Shown: positions 19,466-29,206 of the stretch, in pieces | Layout: every line of letters begins with the position of its first letter | How positions within the stretch are numbered: position 1 is the stretch's first letter | Origin: an uncultured Alphaproteobacteria bacterium | GTDB taxonomy: Bacteria; Pseudomonadota; Alphaproteobacteria; CAAHEQ01; UBA3637 | DNA: 39,341 nt | Reading direction: 5' to 3' | NCBI GenBank assembly: GCA_944392585.1 | Contig: CALXXA010000038.1 | Coordinates: forward strand, 1 to 39,341 | Position numbers and translations under genes: made by a program | The notes under the pieces: generated by a model | What the model saw: only the letters and a program-made list of their open reading frames with translations | What the model was told of the DNA's origin: nothing | Database searches by the model: none

Positions 19466-20560
19466 ATGTCAAACAAAAAAAGAATAGGAGTCTTAACAAG
19501 CGGCGGAGATTGTTCAGGATTAAATACTGCCATTCAAGCAGTCGTTTGTTCCGCCTTAAATCGTGGGTGGGATGTTTTCGGTATTTATAACGCAGCAGAC
19601 GGATTATTTTCTCGTCCAATGCATTATAAACAGTTTACTTATACAGATTTTGATTTCCCATATGCTCGATTAGGCGGAACAATGTTAGGAACCAATAATT
19701 CTGGAAACCCTAATCAACAAATAGCTTCCGACGGATCAATTGAAGAATTGACTGACGAACAATTAATAAAAAGATTCCATGATGGTATCAAAGAGCTTAA
19801 TTTAGATGCCTTGATTGTCATTGGAGGAGATGGGTCTATGGCTATTGTCAGTAAGTTTTGTCATCAAGCCGGTATTGGTATGATTGGAATTCCTAAGACA
19901 ATAGATAATGATGCTCCGGCGACGGAAAAAGCAATTGGCTTCGCAACTGCTCGTGATATTGTAATGGAAGCATTGGACCGATTAGATACAACGGCTACTT
20001 CTCATCAACGTGTTATGATTATTGAAGTCATGGGACGTGGAGCAGGGCATTTAGCTTTAGAAGGAGCTATCGCAGGAATGGCCGATATTTGTTTAATACC
20101 AGAAATTCCATATACTTATGAAAATGTCCTTAAAAAATTAAGAGAAGTGCGTGCTAGTGGTCGATCTCATTCTTTAATGGTTGTAGCAGAAGGAATAAAA
20201 ACTCCTGAGGGAAAGCATTCTTACGCAACAAACGGAAGAACTTTTACAGGAATCGCACATTATTTCGCTGATCGCCTTAGTCAAGAACCCGATAAATTCA
20301 ATGTACGCGCAAATATTCTAGGACATGTTCAAAGAGGCGGAAGTCCAACTGCTCAAGATCGTCTTCTTGCTTCTGCCTTCGCTGTTCATGCTATTGATTT
20401 ACTTGCAAAAGGAATGACTAATAGAATGGTCGTTTATCAAAAAGGAGATATCACCGATATAGATTTAAAAGAAATGCTTAGAATTGCCCATACTCCCGTC
20501 AATCCAAATGGAACAATGGTCCATGTCGCAAGAGGGCTCGGGATGTATGTCGGTGAATAA
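19466..20560 (+). CDS. pfkA: 6-phosphofructokinase
   Basis: Phosphorylates fructose 6-phosphate in glycolysis. The 364 residues include GVLTSGGDCSGLNTAIQ at the start, GGDGSM near residue 118, GIPKTIDNDAPATE near residue 143 with the catalytic Asp, IEVMGRGAGHLAL near residue 190 and GHVQRGGSPTAQDR near residue 287. At the two donor-selecting positions of E. coli numbering it has Gly (GGDGS, position 104) and Lys (PKTIDND, position 124). Pyrophosphate enzymes have Asp and Lys, and E. coli PfkA has Gly and Gly; the Gly-Lys form is known in ATP-using enzymes such as trypanosome PFK. ATP is the likely donor. The DUF465 gene follows in the same direction. Confidence 0.94.
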   Translation: MSNKKRIGVLTSGGDCSGLNTAIQAVVCSALNRGWDVFGIYNAADGLFSRPMHYKQFTYTDFDFPYARLGGTMLGTNNSGNPNQQIASDGSIEELTDEQLIKRFHDGIKELNLDALIVIGGDGSMAIVSKFCHQAGIGMIGIPKTIDNDAPATEKAIGFATARDIVMEALDRLDTTATSHQRVMIIEVMGRGAGHLALEGAIAGMADICLIPEIPYTYENVLKKLREVRASGRSHSLMVVAEGIKTPEGKHSYATNGRTFTGIAHYFADRLSQEPDKFNVRANILGHVQRGGSPTAQDRLLASAFAVHAIDLLAKGMTNRMVVYQKGDITDIDLKEMLRIAHTPVNPNGTMVHVARGLGMYVGE

Positions 20561-20630
20561 TTTCACATATTGCAATTTCTTTTTTTATTACTTATACTAA
20601 TAAAGTAATAACAAAAAAGGAGTCCTAATT

Positions 20631-20810
20631 ATGAATACAGAAAAAATGGAAAAACACTTGATTGCTTTAAAAGAAAAACACAAAGCTCTTGAAACGAGAA
20701 TAGAAGAAGAAAATGCTCGACCGGCTCCGAATGATGCAATCATCCAAGAATTAAAAAAACAAAAATTAAAAATTAAAGAAGAAATTTACGAAATCGAATC
20801 AAAAAAATAA
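20631..20810 (+). CDS. DUF465 (YdcH-like) small coiled-coil protein
   Basis: A 59-residue, highly charged, alpha-helical protein. It begins MNTEKMEKHLIALKEKH, has ETRIEEENARPAPND in the middle turn, and ends with LKKQKLKIKEEIYEIE. This is the two-helix hairpin of DUF465, common in alphaproteobacteria and of unknown function. AAAAAGGAG lies 7 bases before the ATG. It may be co-transcribed with pfkA, 70 bases upstream, and a strong terminator follows at once. Confidence 0.85.
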   Translation: MNTEKMEKHLIALKEKHKALETRIEEENARPAPNDAIIQELKKQKLKIKEEIYEIESKK

Positions 20811-20849
20811 AAAAAAAAGAGAGAGTTCCTTTTAAGAACTCTCTTTTTT
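20811..20849. terminator. Bidirectional rho-independent terminator
   Basis: A perfect 9-base stem, AGAGAGTTC with GAACTCTCT, and a 7-base loop (arms 20820-20828 and 20836-20844). It has an A run on the left and a T run on the right, so it can end transcription of pfkA/DUF465 on the plus strand and of the 20864-21640 gene on the minus strand. Confidence 0.9.
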
Positions 20850-20863
20850 ATGAGTATACAAAA

Positions 20864-21640
20864 TTATATCGTAAAAATAAACGGAACAATTTCAGTTGTT
20901 TGTAATAAAACAAGCGTTTTTTGACTGTTTCTATCTATACAACAAATACTATTTCTCCCTTCCTGGTATGTACTAAAATAAAAAACGTCTTTTTCTTTTG
21001 AATATGCTAAAGAATTTAAATTCGGAACAGGAAACGAAGCTATTTCTTTTTTATTTTGAACAGAAACAATCCTTAAGGTTTCTGGGTTCCAACAAGCAAC
21101 TTCTGTCTGAGATGAAGATAATGTAAAGTCTGTTATATTTTCAGCGATAATTTCTAGTTTCCCTGATAAATCAGATTTTACAAGCTGTTTAGAAGTATTA
21201 ATAAAGAAAATCGAATCGGAAGAACGTTCCCAATTCGGACGTCTCATTAAAGATTTTAATTCCAATATAGGTTTCCAATTTTTCCTATGTTTTTGATAAA
21301 CAGTTAACAATCCAAAAGAATTCGGTGTTAATAAATCTGCACGGACAAGGACAAACAAAGAATTATTTTTGTTAAAAGAAGGATAATACCCATACCCAAA
21401 AATAGTTGCCGTCTCATAAAACTCTGTTTCAAAATCTACCGAAGAAGAGCGTATATGCGTCTTTTCTCCATCGAATTGAACTCCTGCCAGAGGGTGTCGA
21501 AAATCTACCGATAAATTTGCAAATGAATCTACTTTTTTTACACGTAAAAGACGACCATCTTTCATCAAAGTGAATAATACATCCATCTGATCAATAAAAA
21601 AAAGAAGATATGGTGTTAAAATAATGTTACTCATTTGCAT
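20864..21640 (-). CDS. Unknown protein, possible beta-propeller fold
   Basis: A 258-residue protein without signal peptide or recognised motif. It has repeated short strands ending in patterns such as DSIFFINTSKQLVKSD, TEVACWNPETLRIVS and DVFYFSTYQEGRNSICCID, spaced about 40 residues apart. This is reminiscent of TolB-type or WD-like beta-propeller repeats; that is only pattern resemblance. ATGs at 21640 and 21634 are both possible, and neither has a strong ribosome site. The gene is alone on its strand, between pfkA/DUF465 and the MoxR operon. Confidence 0.55.
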   Translation of the reverse strand: MQMSNIILTPYLLFFIDQMDVLFTLMKDGRLLRVKKVDSFANLSVDFRHPLAGVQFDGEKTHIRSSSVDFETEFYETATIFGYGYYPSFNKNNSLFVLVRADLLTPNSFGLLTVYQKHRKNWKPILELKSLMRRPNWERSSDSIFFINTSKQLVKSDLSGKLEIIAENITDFTLSSSQTEVACWNPETLRIVSVQNKKEIASFPVPNLNSLAYSKEKDVFYFSTYQEGRNSICCIDRNSQKTLVLLQTTEIVPFIFTI

Positions 21641-21705
21641 TCTTATTTTTTTTATTCTATATTAATAAAAAAAAATGTATAGTCTTTTTATGAAGGGGAA
21701 ATCAA

Positions 21706-22668
21706 ATGTCAGAAGCGCAAGAAAGTTTTACAAATTTAAGAAATTATTTAAATGATGAGATTATCGGGCAAGAAGGGTTAATAGATAGAATGTTAATTAC
21801 CTTGTTAGCAAATGGACATCTTATTGTTCAAGGGGCTCCAGGATTAGCAAAAACAAAAGCCATTAAAAAACTTGCCTCGGCAATAGAGTGTGATTCGCAT
21901 CGTATCCAATTTACCCCGGATTTATTACCAGCAGATATTACCGGATCAGATATATATAGACCCGAATCCGGGATGTTTGTTTTCCAAAAAGGACCTATTT
22001 TTCATAATCTGATTCTAGCTGATGAAATCAATCGAGCCCCGGCAAAGGTCCAATCAGCTCTATTGGAAGGAATGGCAGAACGTCAAGTAACCGTCGGCGC
22101 AACAACATATATGTTACCTGAATTGTTTATGGTTATGGCGACACAGAACCCAATAGAACATGAAGGAACTTATGCTCTGCCTGAGGCTCAATTAGATCGT
22201 TTCTTAATGTTTGTTACGATTAACCATCCTGATATTGAATCCGAACGAAAAATCTTACGTTTGATTCGAGATGAAGCACGGAAGGGGAATCGTCAAATTT
22301 CAGAAAAAATGACTCAAAATCAAGTTCGACAAGCAAAAGAAGAAGTTCAATCAGTTCACTTATCTCCTGAACTAGAAGAATACATCGTCCAGTTTGTTAT
22401 GGCGACCAGAAATCCAGGAGCGTATAGCGAAAAATTAAAAAAATTTGTTGAATATGGAGCAAGCCCTCGTGGAACATTGTCATTAGATATATGTTCCAGA
22501 GCATGTGCATGGTTACGAGGGAAAGATTATGTTACTCCCGAACACATTCATACCATTATTCATGACGTCTTAAGACACCGCGTTATCTTAACATATGAAG
22601 CGGAAGCTCAGGGAATTACTCCGGATATGTTTATAGACATGTTGTTGCAAGAAGTTCCTTTGCCATAG
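21706..22668 (+). CDS. MoxR-family AAA+ ATPase
   Basis: A 320-residue AAA+ chaperone-like ATPase. Walker A is GAPGLAKT near residue 44, Walker B is LILADEINRAPAK near residue 103, sensor 1 lies in ATQNPIEHEGTYALPEAQLDRF near residue 143 (shown as ATQNPIEHEG then LPEAQLDRF), and sensor 2 in GASPRGTLSLD near residue 254. MoxR proteins help mature metal- or vWA-containing partners. It starts a four-gene unit with DUF58, DUF4381 and a TerB-like gene, with GAAGGGG upstream of the ATG. Confidence 0.95.
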   Translation: MSEAQESFTNLRNYLNDEIIGQEGLIDRMLITLLANGHLIVQGAPGLAKTKAIKKLASAIECDSHRIQFTPDLLPADITGSDIYRPESGMFVFQKGPIFHNLILADEINRAPAKVQSALLEGMAERQVTVGATTYMLPELFMVMATQNPIEHEGTYALPEAQLDRFLMFVTINHPDIESERKILRLIRDEARKGNRQISEKMTQNQVRQAKEEVQSVHLSPELEEYIVQFVMATRNPGAYSEKLKKFVEYGASPRGTLSLDICSRACAWLRGKDYVTPEHIHTIIHDVLRHRVILTYEAEAQGITPDMFIDMLLQEVPLP

Positions 22669-22678
22669 AGAGAATTCA

Positions 22679-23608
22679 ATGCTCCTGAAAAATGAAGAGG
22701 CTATTTCGGCAAGTTTGGAAAGCTTGATTAGAGACAAATATCAGGTTTATAAGTTATTTGTTTCTAATCATAAGAAAACATCTCGGACAACAAACGGAAA
22801 TTATCGCTCGGTTTTTAAAGGCAGAGGAATGGATTTTGATGAAGTTCGCGAGTATAAAGAAGGAGACGATGTTCGTTTGGTAGACTGGCGAGTAACAGCG
22901 CGCCAAGGATCAACTTTCACGAAAGTATATAGGGAAGAAAAAGAACGACATGTTTATTTTATGTTAGATTTACGTTCTTCCATGCGCTTTGCAACAAAAC
23001 AAGCTTTTAAGTCTGTTATAGCGGCTCATATCACGGCTTTGTTAGCATGGTCTTTTGAAGACAAAGGAGATAAAATAGGCGGATTACTTTTATCCGATAA
23101 AGAAATGCAGTCTTTTAGACCTTCAGGATTACAACGTTCTTTAATGCGCTTCTTTAATGAAATCAGTTTAAAAACATCAGAAAAAAATGTATTAAAACCT
23201 ATAGAACAAGAAATTTCTCTGCAAGCTGCTTGTTGGAAATTGCGCCATTTTTGTAAAAGCGGAAATATTGTCTTTTTTATTAGCGACTTTTCTGATTTAA
23301 CAGAAGACACATTAAAGTGTTTTGCTTCTTTCGCAAAGTCAAATGAAGTTATTCTTATTAATGTTTATGATGAATTAGAAGGAACTTGCCCGCCTCCGAA
23401 TATCTATTCGGTTACAAACGGAGATGAAACTCTTGCTTTAAATATGCGTAGTCAACAACTTCAAAAAGCTTATGTTAATTACTTTAAAAAACGGTATGAT
23501 ACTTTAAAGGATTTTTCAACTCGGTATGGAATTCACTATATTCCCGTTTCAACGGCTATGAACTATATTGATGTCGTCGCAAATGCTTTACGGAGGAAAT
23601 CAAAATGA
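22679..23608 (+). CDS. DUF58 domain protein
   Basis: A 309-residue cytosolic protein. The DUF58 signature is clear near residues 46-75: GRGMDFDEVREYKEGDDV followed by RLVDWRVTAR. It is followed by a vWA-like stretch (YFMLDLRSSMRF near residue 97, and FFISDFSD near residue 197). DUF58 proteins almost always pair with MoxR ATPases, as here, and their task is poorly known. It begins 10 bases after moxR and overlaps the DUF4381 gene by 4 bases. Confidence 0.93.
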   Translation: MLLKNEEAISASLESLIRDKYQVYKLFVSNHKKTSRTTNGNYRSVFKGRGMDFDEVREYKEGDDVRLVDWRVTARQGSTFTKVYREEKERHVYFMLDLRSSMRFATKQAFKSVIAAHITALLAWSFEDKGDKIGGLLLSDKEMQSFRPSGLQRSLMRFFNEISLKTSEKNVLKPIEQEISLQAACWKLRHFCKSGNIVFFISDFSDLTEDTLKCFASFAKSNEVILINVYDELEGTCPPPNIYSVTNGDETLALNMRSQQLQKAYVNYFKKRYDTLKDFSTRYGIHYIPVSTAMNYIDVVANALRRKSK

Positions 23609-24057
23609 ATTTGGATCTATCCGAATTAAAAGATATTCACCTTCCTGTTAAACCAGATTTATGGCCTCTGTCTTGGGGATGGTGGCTTTTAATTTGGATT
23701 TTTTTTATTTTAATCGTTTCATTAATATACCTTGTTTATTGGTATCTTAACCGTCCAAGAACTTATGCTTTACATGAATTAAAACGAATAAGTAACTTAG
23801 ATGGAAAGATTTTTTTAAAAGAAATAAATTCACTTTTAAAACGTCTTGTTATTTATAAATTTGGATCAACCACCGGAGCTTCTTTATATGGAGATAACTG
23901 GATTTCTTTCCTTAACCAAACAAAAAATGTTTGTTTCTCGAAAGAATACGAAAATCTTTTGGAAAAAAGTATGTATGCTTCTCAAGAAGTTTTAACTCCT
24001 GAAGATAAAAAACTCATATTAGAAAATTCAAAAAAATGGATTAAATTTAATTTATAG
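23605..24057 (+). CDS. DUF4381 family membrane protein
   Basis: A 150-residue protein with an N-terminal periplasmic Pro/Trp-rich stretch (LPVKPDLWPLSWGWWLL), one membrane helix near residues 24-46, and a cytosolic helical tail with YALHELKRI, LKRLVIYKFG and GDNWISFLN, the pattern of DUF4381. It overlaps the DUF58 stop by 4 bases. In other MoxR operons this gene leads into vWA-domain BatA/BatB genes, which are missing here. Confidence 0.85.
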   Translation: MNLDLSELKDIHLPVKPDLWPLSWGWWLLIWIFFILIVSLIYLVYWYLNRPRTYALHELKRISNLDGKIFLKEINSLLKRLVIYKFGSTTGASLYGDNWISFLNQTKNVCFSKEYENLLEKSMYASQEVLTPEDKKLILENSKKWIKFNL

Positions 24058-24067
24058 GAGGCGAATT

Positions 24068-24877
24068 ATGGAAAATGCCACTTCTTTACTAGAAGCGATT
24101 GCTCATTTAACAGGAGAAAATTTAACTTTATTAGAAAAAAATCGTTCCCAGCCCATTAAAAACCCTGAAGTAAGAAAACATCTTCAAAGTAAAAACATTT
24201 TAGCCTCCGGAATTTCTATTTTGGTTGAAGTAGATTATACTTCTCTGTCAGGGAAATCTCAACTTCGTGATATTATTATTCGACGTGTTATCAAAAGCGG
24301 AAAAGATTTTTTTATAGATGCGTTTTGTTTGGCTATTCAAGCTCCGCGGCTCATTAAAATAGATTCTATCAAAAGAATTAAAAACAAAAAAACAAACCAA
24401 GAATATATGTCTCCGAAAGCTTTTTTTGAGGAGGTTTTAGGTATAGAATTCAATAAGGATCAAACTTTGAATAACATTCACTCTTCTTTGCAAACGGCAC
24501 CTCAAGGAGAATTAAAAACCGCTATTAATAGATCTCGCAGCGAGATTACAGCCTTGATGTTTATATCTGGAATTGATGGAAGCAGGGAACATGCTGAATT
24601 TGAACAAATTGCTCAATACGTTCACCGTCGATGTCCGGACTTGGTTTTTAAAGATGAGGATTTATATAGATATCTAAATATACTTTATCCAGATCGAGAA
24701 AGCTTTTATCAATCTATGGAATCTATTTTGAGAAAAGATGCTTGGATTATTAAGCTTTTTTTGGAACATATGATACACTTAATTACAAGCGATGGGAAAA
24801 TTGATACAAAAGAACGAGTCTTTTTAGCTGAAATTATAACTATTTTGAAAAATGAAGGTTTTATTATTAACTTTTAG
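24068..24877 (+). CDS. Putative TerB-like domain protein
   Basis: A 269-residue cytosolic protein. Residues 45-105 (VDYTSLSGKSQLRDIIIRR then IDAFCLAIQAPRLIKIDSIK) resemble a WYL-like small beta domain. The C-terminal half is helical and contains MFISGIDGSREHAEFEQIA and HLITSDGKIDTKERVFLAEI, which look like acidic metal-binding loops of TerB domains. TerB often accompanies tellurite-resistance and vWA modules. Both domain calls come from pattern only. It is the last gene of the MoxR unit, 10 bases after DUF4381, with AGGAGG upstream of its ATG. Confidence 0.6.
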   Translation: MENATSLLEAIAHLTGENLTLLEKNRSQPIKNPEVRKHLQSKNILASGISILVEVDYTSLSGKSQLRDIIIRRVIKSGKDFFIDAFCLAIQAPRLIKIDSIKRIKNKKTNQEYMSPKAFFEEVLGIEFNKDQTLNNIHSSLQTAPQGELKTAINRSRSEITALMFISGIDGSREHAEFEQIAQYVHRRCPDLVFKDEDLYRYLNILYPDRESFYQSMESILRKDAWIIKLFLEHMIHLITSDGKIDTKERVFLAEIITILKNEGFIINF

Positions 24878-24891
24878 TCTTTATAAATATC

Positions 24892-24920
24892 TTGCTTTTT
24901 AAATATAGTTCTCTTATAAT
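24892..24920 (+). promoter_or_regulatory. Sigma-70 promoter of gltX
   Basis: TTGCTT, 17 bases, then a perfect TATAAT, ending 27 bases before the gltX ATG. This is the best promoter match in the window. Confidence 0.7.
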
Positions 24921-24947
24921 AACGCGAAATTCCGACTGGAGAAAAAA

Positions 24948-26597
24948 ATGAAAGATGAAATAGTTAATAAAATTTTCCCGTATCCTTTACCATCTATCGC
25001 TGAAATTGAATCAAAATATCCTGACAGGGCTCTTCCAGAAGGAGCAAAAGTCACACGTATTGCTCCAAGTCCAACGGGTCTAATGCATATAGGGAATCTT
25101 AGCGCTGCTCTTATTTCCGAACGGTTTGCCCATCAATCTGACGGCGTTTTCTTTTTAAGAATCGAAGATACTGATCAAAAAAGAAAAGTGGAGGGTGCTG
25201 TTGATTTAATTTTAAAAACTTTTGATGATTATGATATCCAAAATGATGAAGGTCCAGTCTTGAATAAAAAAGAAATAGGTCTTTACGGCCCTTATTTTCA
25301 AAGTGCTCGTAAAGAAATTTATCAGGCTTATGTCAAGGATTGGTTGAAAAAAGATCTTGCGTATCTTTGCTTTTGTTCGGAAGAAGAAAAAGAAAAAAAT
25401 GATGCCCTTCAAGTAGCTCAGAACATGCGCCCGGGTTACTATGGAAGATGGGCTAAATGTCGAAATTTATCTCAAGACACCATTTTGCAATATCTTAATG
25501 AAGGGAAAAAATTCGTTGTTCGATTTAAATCTCCTGGACATTATAATAATAAAATTATTATTCGTGATGCCTTACGTGGAAATTTGAAATTTCCAGAAAA
25601 TGATTTAGATATTGTCATCTTAAAAGGAGATGGACTTCCTACGTATCATTTTGCTCATCTCATTGATGATCATCTTATGCGAACAACACATGTGTTTCGA
25701 GGAGAAGAATGGCTTTCTTCTTTGCCTCTTCATATTCAACTGTTCCAAGCAATGGGCTGGAATCCTCCTCAATATGCACATATTTCGCATATTCAAAAAA
25801 TGGATGAAACCGGAAATCGTCGTAAAATATCTAAACGCCTTGATCCGGAAGCCAAACTAACTTACTACACTGACAAAGGATATCCCAAGGTGGCTCTTAT
25901 CGAATACTTGCTTAATTTAGCAAATTCTAATTTCGAAGATTGGCGGAGAGCTAATCCTGACAAGCCTTATACAGATTTTGAGTTGTCTCTAAAAAAGTTA
26001 AATGCCAGCGGAGCTTTATTTGATTTTCTTAAGCTCAATAGTATTAGCAAAGATGTTATTTCTAAAATGACTGCTCAGGAAGTCTATGATAATGCTCTTG
26101 ATTGGATGAAAAACTATGATCCTTTATTTGCTCAAGTCATGGAAAATAACAAAGATTATATGCTGAAAATCTTTAATATAGAGCGAGAAGGAGCAAAAAA
26201 AGTACGGAAAGACATTATTGTTTGGGAGGATGTAAAAAAAGAAGTTGCTTATTTTTTTGACGACTTGTTTTCTTTAACTTATAAAGATGCTTGCAATCTA
26301 CTTTCTCCCTTATCTGTCAGCGACATATCTAATATAATTAATTCTTTTGTTGAAACATATGATGAAAGTGACACAAAAGAAAATTGGTTCTCTAAAATTA
26401 AAAAAATCGCTTCTGACTATGGTTTCTCTGCTGATATGAAAGCCTATAAAGCCAATCCTTCTCTTTTTAAAGGAAATATCTCTGATGTCGCTAAAGTATT
26501 ACGTGTTTTTGTAACTGGGAAAGATCAATCTCCGGATTTGTATGCAATCATGCAAGTCATGGGGAAAGAGCGTGTGTTAAAAAGATTAAAAATATAA
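24948..26597 (+). CDS. gltX: Glutamyl-tRNA synthetase, clostridial-like long form
   Basis: Charges tRNA(Glu) with glutamate. The 549 residues are longer than the roughly 470 of common proteobacterial forms. An N-terminal extension (SKYPDRALPEGAKVTRIAPS) precedes the HIGH-like MHIGN near residue 47. The KMSKS-like motif is RRKISKRLDPEA near residue 290. Then ANSNFEDWRRANPD and LKKLNASGALFDFLKLN read like GluRS of Clostridia, with which I compare from memory. LRIEDTDQKRK and VFRGEEWL are general class Ia GluRS marks. It has its own promoter, and the ABC exporter follows 4 bases later. Confidence 0.93.
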   Translation: MKDEIVNKIFPYPLPSIAEIESKYPDRALPEGAKVTRIAPSPTGLMHIGNLSAALISERFAHQSDGVFFLRIEDTDQKRKVEGAVDLILKTFDDYDIQNDEGPVLNKKEIGLYGPYFQSARKEIYQAYVKDWLKKDLAYLCFCSEEEKEKNDALQVAQNMRPGYYGRWAKCRNLSQDTILQYLNEGKKFVVRFKSPGHYNNKIIIRDALRGNLKFPENDLDIVILKGDGLPTYHFAHLIDDHLMRTTHVFRGEEWLSSLPLHIQLFQAMGWNPPQYAHISHIQKMDETGNRRKISKRLDPEAKLTYYTDKGYPKVALIEYLLNLANSNFEDWRRANPDKPYTDFELSLKKLNASGALFDFLKLNSISKDVISKMTAQEVYDNALDWMKNYDPLFAQVMENNKDYMLKIFNIEREGAKKVRKDIIVWEDVKKEVAYFFDDLFSLTYKDACNLLSPLSVSDISNIINSFVETYDESDTKENWFSKIKKIASDYGFSADMKAYKANPSLFKGNISDVAKVLRVFVTGKDQSPDLYAIMQVMGKERVLKRLKI

Positions 26598-26601
26598 AAA
26601 A

Positions 26602-28359
26602 ATGTTTTCAAAGATTCAAGAAACTCAATTCGTTAAAAACTATAAAAGAATGTGGCCTTTCGTCAAGCCGTATTGGTTTAGAGCGTTATTAGCTACTTTA
26701 ATTACAATCCCTATTGGTTCTTTAGACGCTGTAATCGCCTTGTCTTTAAAGCCCTACATGGATAACGTGTTAATAGATAAAAGTATAGATACTCCTTTTT
26801 ATATTCCTCTTTTAATCATTCTGTTTACGATTATTCAAAGTGGTTTAGATTATTCTTCCAGCTACTTAAACACTTGGGTAGGTTCAAAAATTACAATGGA
26901 ACTCAAAAAAAAGCTTTATAAAAAGCTCATTTCTTTTCAGTCTGCTTATTTTGATAATACTTCTTCTGGAAGTGTTGTCTTTCGTTATGATAATGATCCA
27001 AACTTGGCTTGTACCGGGTTATTAAATAATTTAAAAGTTTTCACAACTCGTTTGTTTTCTTCAGTTTCCTTAATTTGTGTTCTTATCTACACTTCTTGGG
27101 AACTAGCTATTATTGCAATCACTATTTTATTCTTTTCTTTATATCCATTAACAAAAATTCGCCAAAAAATTAAGGAAATTACAAACAGAACAGTCTTGGC
27201 CGGAGGAGAAGCCGTTACTTTATATAATGAGACATATGCTGGAAACAAAACAATTGCTTCTTATAATTTAAAAGAATATCAAGAAAAACAATTCCAAACT
27301 GTTCTCACAAAATTATTTAAGCTCGCTATCAAACAAACACAAAAAACAGCTTGGTTATCTCCGATGATGCATATTATCATCTCTATAGGTATAGCTCTTG
27401 TTATTTGGGCCGGAAGTTCTTTAATTATGAACCATCAAATCACCGGCGGAGATTTTGTTGCTTTTATGACCGCTATGTTAATGCTTTATACCCCTATAAA
27501 AAATATCGGTAAAAACTTCAGCTCTGTCCAATTATCTTTTATGGCCATAGATAGAGTTTTCGAGATCTTAGAACAACCGGTTACTATCCGAGATAATAAA
27601 AATCCTAAAATACTTACAGAATTAAAAAAAGAAATTACTTTCCAAGATGTTGCTTTTGAGTATAAACCAGGAGTGCCTGTCCTAAAAGGAATTAATTTAC
27701 ACCTAAGAAAAGGACAAACTATTGCTTTTGTCGGAAATTCAGGAGGCGGAAAAACAACACTGGTTAACTTAATCCCTCGTTTTTATGATGTAACTCGCGG
27801 TTCCATCCAAATAGATGGCATAGATATTCGAGAATTTTCTATAGAATCTTTAAGAAGTAATATCGCTGTCGTCTTTCAAGATAACTTTTTGTTCTCTGGA
27901 ACAATTTTAGATAATATCTTACTGGGGAAACCAAACGCTTCTCCTCAAGAGATAGAGCAAGCGTTAAAAAGTGCTTGCTTAGATGAATTCGTTCATGAAC
28001 TGAAAGATGGCTTAAATACAAACATTGGAGAAAGAGGAACTCTTTTATCCTGAGGGCAAAAACAACGTGTCGCCATAGCGCGTGCTTTTTTGAAAAACGC
28101 TCCTATTGTTATTTTGGATGAAGCGACATCTGCTCTGGATAATAAATCAGAGGCTATTGTTCAAAAAGCAATTGATAATCTAATGGAAGACAGGACTGTT
28201 TTCGTTATTGCTCATAGGTTATCCACAGTTCAAAATGCAGATAGAATTGTTGTCGTGAATGAAGGATTAATAGTTGAAGAAGGAACTCATGAAGAACTGT
28301 TAAACATTGAAAATGGTGCCTATAAAGCTCTTTATATGGCTCAATTTAAGACGAAGTGA
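26602..28359 (+). pseudogene. MsbA-type ABC exporter interrupted by in-frame TGA in the signature motif
   Basis: Full-length ABC half-transporter of the MsbA family (lipid A or lipid flippase type): six membrane helices in residues 1-310, then an ATPase domain. Walker A is GNSGGGKTT near residue 375, the Q-loop VFQDNFLF, Walker B and D-loop [11 protein letters not shown], and the H-loop AHRLS. Codon 484 at 28051-28053 is TGA, exactly where the first Gly of LSGGQ belongs (LLS[15 protein letters not shown]), and the frame then stays open to 28359. GGA to TGA is one base change. A product stopping at 483 lacks Walker B and cannot work as an ATPase. Either the gene is newly broken, the base is wrong, or UGA is read through. 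It could be one of several MsbA-like genes in this genome. Its end overlaps the convergent mscS gene. Confidence 0.85.
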
Positions 28360-29206
28360 TTTTCAACTGACTTATTCTTTTCAAAATCTTTAATCTTAAG
28401 TCACTCATAATTTGATTTTTCGCCAATATGTTTCTAACGGAGAAGTATACTTCTAATTGGATTTTTTCATTCTTCATACTGGTAATAAGAATACGTGGTT
28501 TAGGATTTTTTAAAATCTCGGCATGAGTTGATAAAGATTTTTGAAGCAATTTTTCCACTTTAAAAATATCACACGTAATAGGCAAGGTTATTTTTAAAAG
28601 ACTCTCTGCAGAGGTTTGCTGATAAGTTAAAACTGTTATATCTGTCGATAAAACAGAGGCATTCGGGATTAAAATACGTATATTATCATTGGTTTCAAGT
28701 TCCGTAGAACGAATATTAACTCGTCTTACAATTCCCTGCTTCCCATTGATAATAACTTTATCTCCGACTTTTATTGTCTGCCCAAATAAAATAATAATCC
28801 CAGAAAAAAAGTTATTTACGACATTTTGTAATCCGAATCCTATCCCGACCGAAAGAGCTCCGGCTATAATCGTGAAATTTTTAAGGTTGATTCCTAAAGC
28901 CGATAAAACAAAAAGAAATGCCAAAATCAAGCCCAAATAACCCATGACGGAAACAATAGTCAGTTGAGTGCTCTTTGTTAAGTCGGTCTTCGGCAAGAGG
29001 TGTAATTGTAAAAGCTTTTGAACTAATTTTGTGACTTCCATAGTTATAATAAAAACCAGAAAAGCAAAAAACAGTGGGGCTAAAGGTAAATTAAATTGAC
29101 CTATATGAACATTCATTAATTGAGTTTTAAGGGCAGGGGATAATTCTAAAATAACCGCCACTAAAATTAAAAAACAAACTAAAAAAGCTTTTATATACTT
29201 AAACAT
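28346..29206 (-). CDS. Small-conductance mechanosensitive channel (MscS family)
   Basis: Releases solutes on osmotic downshock, in the inner membrane. The 286 residues have hydrophobic helices near 5-25, 40-60, and 78-100, then the pore helix region [21 protein letters not shown] (split: [21 protein letters not shown]) near residue 116. A beta domain follows ([20 protein letters not shown], then [12 protein letters not shown]). I start at ATG 29206 because AGGAG lies 5 bases upstream; a TTG at 29224 precedes that site. It overlaps the end of the ABC exporter by 14 bases. Confidence 0.92.

Follow-up and report, generated by a model that had tools for sequence, protein, structure and literature searches.

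Probable old replacement of glutamyl-tRNA synthetase by a long-type enzyme in a family of Alphaproteobacteria

Although no cell can do without its aminoacyl-tRNA synthetases, an entire family of Alphaproteobacteria (f1) appears to live on one foreign-type copy of glutamyl-tRNA synthetase (GluRS), of a long type found chiefly in Clostridia and in very small episymbiotic bacteria. We think it very likely that a long-type GluRS gene, gltX, was transferred into this lineage before f1 diversified, replaced the canonical gene or genes and was then inherited vertically, and that its product is most likely a non-discriminating enzyme that depends on amidation by GatCAB. We regard this as an old, fixed replacement of a housekeeping synthetase between phyla and as a fresh example of a familiar phenomenon. 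Horizontal transfer of GluRS into Alpha- and Gammaproteobacteria has already been published (Dasgupta and Basu, 2014; PMC3927822), and events of this sort are therefore not new in themselves. In that work, outlying alpha- and gammaproteobacterial GluRS groups were sisters of chlamydiae, fusobacteria and deinococcus-thermus and were put down to horizontal transfer. A literature search that covered open-access papers found no description of the long GluRS type or of its transfer.

Results

The window, by which we mean the whole 39,341-nucleotide stretch analysed, corresponds to contig C38; the genome measures 1.16 Mb, is assembled in 55 contigs and is rated 100% complete. The first-pass annotation had described a GluRS of 549 residues with three characteristic strings, and the open reading frame of gltX, which starts with ATG, does encode a protein of that length with all three: LPEGAKVTRIAPS, KISKRLDPEA and ANSNFEDWRRANPD (Table 1). 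The protein scored 322.1 bits against TIGR00464 (gltX_bact), above the curated cut-off of 289.95, and matched PF00749 at residues 35-324 and PF19269 in its C-terminal part. By these family matches we identify it as a glutamyl-tRNA synthetase. GluQRS (YadB) was rejected as an identity: the score against TIGR03838 was 152.6 bits, below the cut-off of 276.7, and the anticodon-binding domain PF19269 is present. A structure predicted from a six-row alignment had a mean pLDDT of 71.2 and a pTM of 0.57, with residues 27-117 below 50.

Table 1. Features of gltX and its upstream region (positions in the window)
Feature	Position	Strand	Basis
gltX, long-type glutamyl-tRNA synthetase, 549 aa	24948..26597	+	TIGR00464, PF00749, PF19269
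N-terminal extension, residues 1-34, before the catalytic domain	24948..25049	+	alignment of solved GluRS chains begins near residue 31-36
HIGH-type motif HIGN, residues 47-50	25086..25097	+	sequence, position
KMSKS-type motif KISKR, residues 293-297, then LDPEA	25824..25838	+	sequence, position
C-terminal anticodon-binding domain, residues 400-548	26145..26591	+	PF19269, 44.6 bits
Promoter-like site TTGCTT-17-TATAAT	24892..24920	+	read from sequence
Ribosome-binding-like GGAG, 6 bases before the ATG	24938..24941	+	read from sequence

In a collected set of 88 long GluRS (counted without the partial sequences L232 and L234 and without repeat loci) and 74 short GluRS, three motifs separated the two types. 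SKRxDxE occurred in 86/88 long and 0/74 short sequences, the N-terminal block YPxRxL...PSPTG in 79/88 and 0/74, and RKD with I, F, L or M as the next residue in 86/88 and 3/74. We take the motifs that had been quoted for the window GluRS to be diagnostic of the long type, rather than chance resemblances. The accompanying claim that proteobacterial enzymes are near 470 residues held in the main, with long GluRS of 525-571 and short GluRS of 459-526 residues; the two ranges, for which starts were picked by script, just touch. At the column of Thermus thermophilus Arg358, our reading of the alignment places RKD in the long type. The effect of the residue in this column varies between species (PMC3927822), and RKD may be taken only as a hint on tRNA-Gln charging.

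The window GluRS is 44-54% identical to the long GluRS of one Clostridial group, and 47.8%, 45.5% and 42.1% identical to the enzymes of Monoglobus pectinilyticus, Lachnospira eligens and Ruminococcus albus, respectively. Identity to the best copy in 15 genomes of the same class outside f1 (full-size frames) was 31-39%. These values support the original impression of a protein that looks Clostridial rather than canonically alphaproteobacterial. Grouping with canonical GluRS is also rejected (see below).

The long form is close to universal in the family of the window. We found exactly one match, always of the long form, in 22/23 f1 genomes from 13 genera; the exception is an assembly that is 78% complete. 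In an even sample of 337 genomes from the class, the four f1 genomes and 10/333 others matched at E < 1e-100, the latter in f39, f48 and f69 (two each) and in f51, f70, f90 and f23 (one each). One f70 genome (G096) carries both a long and a short GluRS. Only short forms occur in f74 (3/3 genomes) and in one of the three genomes of f48. Outside the class, the long type occurs in 35/37 close relatives of the Clostridial G042, with one further fragment at a contig end, but in 6/249 genomes of the G042 phylum sample. In the phylum sample of G041 (Candidatus Uhrbacteria), it was found in 16/332 genomes plus one fragment.

Two further kinds of record came up in this survey. A divergent long GluRS (37.9% identity) lies beside an MFS transporter gene on a plasmid of Streptomyces sp. 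NBC_00704 (NZ_CP109002.1; L145) and forms a very long branch in trees. Three unannotated faecal 'Bacteriophage sp.' records (MT835705, MT835480 and MT835514) contain a long GluRS at 44-46% identity, which may be bacterial DNA within a phage set. Phages were considered as carriers of the gene and set aside, as a scan of viral contigs found no relative.

Long GluRS formed one clade with a support of 100, apart from the sampled short GluRS, in all three data sets (91, 76 and 64 rows). L056 (f149, 34% identity) fell outside this clade in the 91-row tree and was dropped from later sets. When f1 was held together with 16 canonical alphaproteobacterial GluRS in the 64-row set, the cost was 197 log-likelihood units (p-AU 2.2e-11). 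A tree of 41 long sequences, from which the long branches (f69, the goat genome, Streptomyces, L103 and L230) and many near-duplicates had been removed, contains a 100/100 branch that splits f1, f39, f48, f51, f70, f90, f23 and four CPR sequences from Clostridia and five CPR sequences; f1 is monophyletic in it at 95/93. In the 76-row tree, 23 alphaproteobacterial rows including f1 form a clade (SH-aLRT 97), and a long branch that belongs to neither side carries f69 and the goat genome. These trees place the long GluRS of other alphaproteobacterial families and of some CPR bacteria as the nearest relatives of the window GluRS. Placement inside Alphaproteobacteria, which the first-pass annotation had named as counting against its reading, was thus found among long-type sequences (41 rows) and not with respect to canonical GluRS. 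With groups that were named after the trees had been seen, forcing f1 to the Clostridial side gave a p-AU of 0.237 (64 rows) and 0.029 (76 rows). A tree that joined the core alphaproteobacteria to the Clostridial side and kept all other rows apart had a p-AU of 0.102. The tests thus disfavour a Clostridial descent of the f1 gene, without excluding it cleanly.

An rpoB tree of 62 genomes joins f1, f39, f74, f48, f51 and f70 with a support of 99; G009, G042, G024 and G033 yielded no rpoB sequence, and G018 yielded only pieces. All nine f1 genomes present in both trees fall into the same two groups for gltX and for rpoB. As f90, f69 and f23 lie elsewhere in the rpoB tree, some copies of long gltX have moved again. 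Furthermore, f74 and one f48 genome belong to the clade that rpoB forms around f1 and yet have short forms, which a single gain could explain only with later losses. The best GluRS of the sister family f74 (L057, genome G100), a short form, was observed to group with the Firmicute sequence L119 and CPR sequences, and not with canonical alphaproteobacterial GluRS, and is thus another non-canonical GluRS. GluRS turnover among these related families was therefore not a single event.

A single GluRS, the long gltX, was found in the genome of the window. The only other match to TIGR00464, at 17.8 bits (below the cut-off), is a cysteinyl-tRNA synthetase. The idea that the gene had replaced the native one fits this lack of a second GluRS, and the genes for the partner amidotransferase are there: gatC, gatA and gatB lie in a row on contig C30. 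We searched 53 selected genomes for GlnRS. None scored above the cut-off in the 39 alphaproteobacterial genomes (22 of them f1), in 3 CPR genomes or in 6 genomes around the Clostridial G042, whereas 5/5 other Clostridia carrying long GluRS had one. Thus, the long type is not tied to a non-discriminating role. A published rule based on genome content takes a lone GluRS to be non-discriminating when GlnRS is missing; in the same work, a second GluRS was counted in 47 of 69 Alphaproteobacteria (PMC3927822). The genome of the window, as assembled in 55 contigs, combines a single GluRS and GatCAB with no GlnRS above the cut-off. From this gene content, the window GluRS probably loads glutamate onto tRNA-Gln as well as tRNA-Glu, and GatCAB would then correct the mischarged tRNA-Gln. 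The two-GluRS state would then be what the long GluRS replaced.

As a separate observation, the 550-residue ORF directly before gatC in this genome (L247 1-1653 (+), G000:C30) is very rich in cysteine.

Upstream of gltX, the TTG and TAT[A/G]AT elements of the promoter-like site (Table 1) are kept in 7/7 aligned upstream regions, all of which come from one f1 sub-group; this conservation does not bear on whether the site travelled with the gene. The site had been credited with being a very strong promoter, and we could not substantiate this. Its -35 box, TTGCTT, has 3 of 6 matches, and a promoter scan of 20500-28500 did not call the site; that scan found 24 sites in all, compared with a mean of 31.7 in shuffles. 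We describe it as a promoter-like site that is conserved within part of f1 and is not demonstrably strong.

The genes that flank gltX were also recorded. Before it, at 21706-24877 (+), lie genes for a MoxR-type AAA ATPase, a DUF58 protein, a DUF4381 protein and a weakly TerB-like protein, in the same order as in L002. The TerB-like gene is present upstream in 3 of the 7 aligned regions and was not found in the other four. The next gene after gltX, which is MsbA-like (26602-28053 (+)), has an early in-frame TGA (28051-28053) within its LSGGQ signature, and the frame continues beyond it. This stop was not seen in the stretch compared in eight loci (L002 and L007-L013, of which L002 and L008 apparently stem from the same genome). 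It may reflect a real disruption of the gene, variation between strains or a mistake in assembly.

Discussion

Based on these results, we propose a model for the origin of the f1 GluRS and for the way in which it may be used. A long-type GluRS of about 550 residues would have entered the alphaproteobacterial lineage by horizontal transfer well before f1 diversified, and it would have taken the place of the canonical short gene or genes, which were presumably lost. Within f1 the long gltX would then have been inherited vertically, with further turnover in neighbouring families. In the second part of the model, the long GluRS would charge both tRNA-Glu and tRNA-Gln with glutamate, a specificity that we infer, and GatCAB would amidate Glu-tRNA-Gln. 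Candidate donors are Clostridia, CPR bacteria or an unsampled group, and the p-AU values for f1 on the Clostridial side (0.237 and 0.029) do not fix the direction of transfer.

The same replacement could have come about without a Firmicute donor, if the gene travelled through CPR bacteria or outward from Alphaproteobacteria. We give this route a substantial chance, if somewhat short of even. Some CPR long GluRS fall on the alphaproteobacterial side, long GluRS occurs in the Candidatus Uhrbacteria phylum sample, and neither side includes f69 or the goat genome. However, the long type is nearly universal in one Clostridial group only (35/37), and the rooting of the long clade depends on long branches.

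A more recent origin, by which this species or genus acquired the gene from a gut Firmicute together with its own strong promoter, is very unlikely. Such a gift would explain the 44-54% identity to Clostridial long GluRS, and one data set did not reject f1 on the Clostridial side (p-AU 0.237). But a single copy in 22/23 f1 genomes is at odds with acquisition by this organism, the nearest relatives are alphaproteobacterial, Clostridia lie beyond the 100/100 split, and the larger set gave a p-AU of 0.029. Nor does the gene look foreign in composition: its G+C (0.345) and third-position G+C (0.246) are inside the range of the window's genes, and its codon usage is not outlying, although its deviation ranks 30 of 33 in the window, near that of other long genes.

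We consider it extremely unlikely that the gene is a vertically inherited alphaproteobacterial GluRS that acquired its extension in the course of rapid divergence. The rapid evolution of small, A+T-rich genomes counts in favour of this explanation, and related alphaproteobacterial families have the long type too. Against it, joining f1 to canonical GluRS is rejected under the model used (p-AU 2.2e-11), and SKRxDxE is common to 86/88 long and to none of the 74 short sequences. A mis-binned Clostridial contig, for which only the 55-contig state of the assembly might speak, is hardly credible and was rejected because the same gene with the same neighbours recurs in L002, a record titled Alphaproteobacteria; the long form is also found in 22/23 f1 genomes, and no other GluRS was found in the genome.

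Our preferred reading thus remains an old transfer into the ancestry of f1, and it may be part of a wider pattern. We suggest, tentatively and with less than even confidence, that long GluRS moves between distant phyla, among host-associated and episymbiotic bacteria (Clostridia, CPR bacteria, small-genome Alphaproteobacteria and occasionally a plasmid), turning the two-GluRS state common in Alphaproteobacteria into one with a single non-discriminating enzyme. If this is true, a mobile long GluRS would change how Gln-tRNA is made in the recipient Alphaproteobacteria. The f1 GluRS offers a case, open to testing, in which a single enzyme takes over from the usual arrangement. It is also a warning against using GluRS as a marker in these Alphaproteobacteria.

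The window GluRS shares with the bacterial GluRS of TIGR00464 the catalytic and anticodon-binding domains and the HIGH- and KMSKS-type motifs. To these it adds some 34 residues at the N-terminus, the SKRxDxE motif that follows the signature loop, and the conserved RKD motif in the C-terminal half. The Clostridial long GluRS of M. pectinilyticus, L. eligens and R. albus are like it in length, extension and motifs, at 42-48% identity, but they lie on the opposite side of the 100/100 branch, and 5/5 tested Clostridia of that set also have GlnRS. The outlying groups described by Dasgupta and Basu (2014; PMC3927822) are likewise proteobacterial GluRS of foreign origin. In our trees, a GluRS of Sinorhizobium, which may or may not be among the sequences of that paper, lies near Fusobacterium and outside the long clade.
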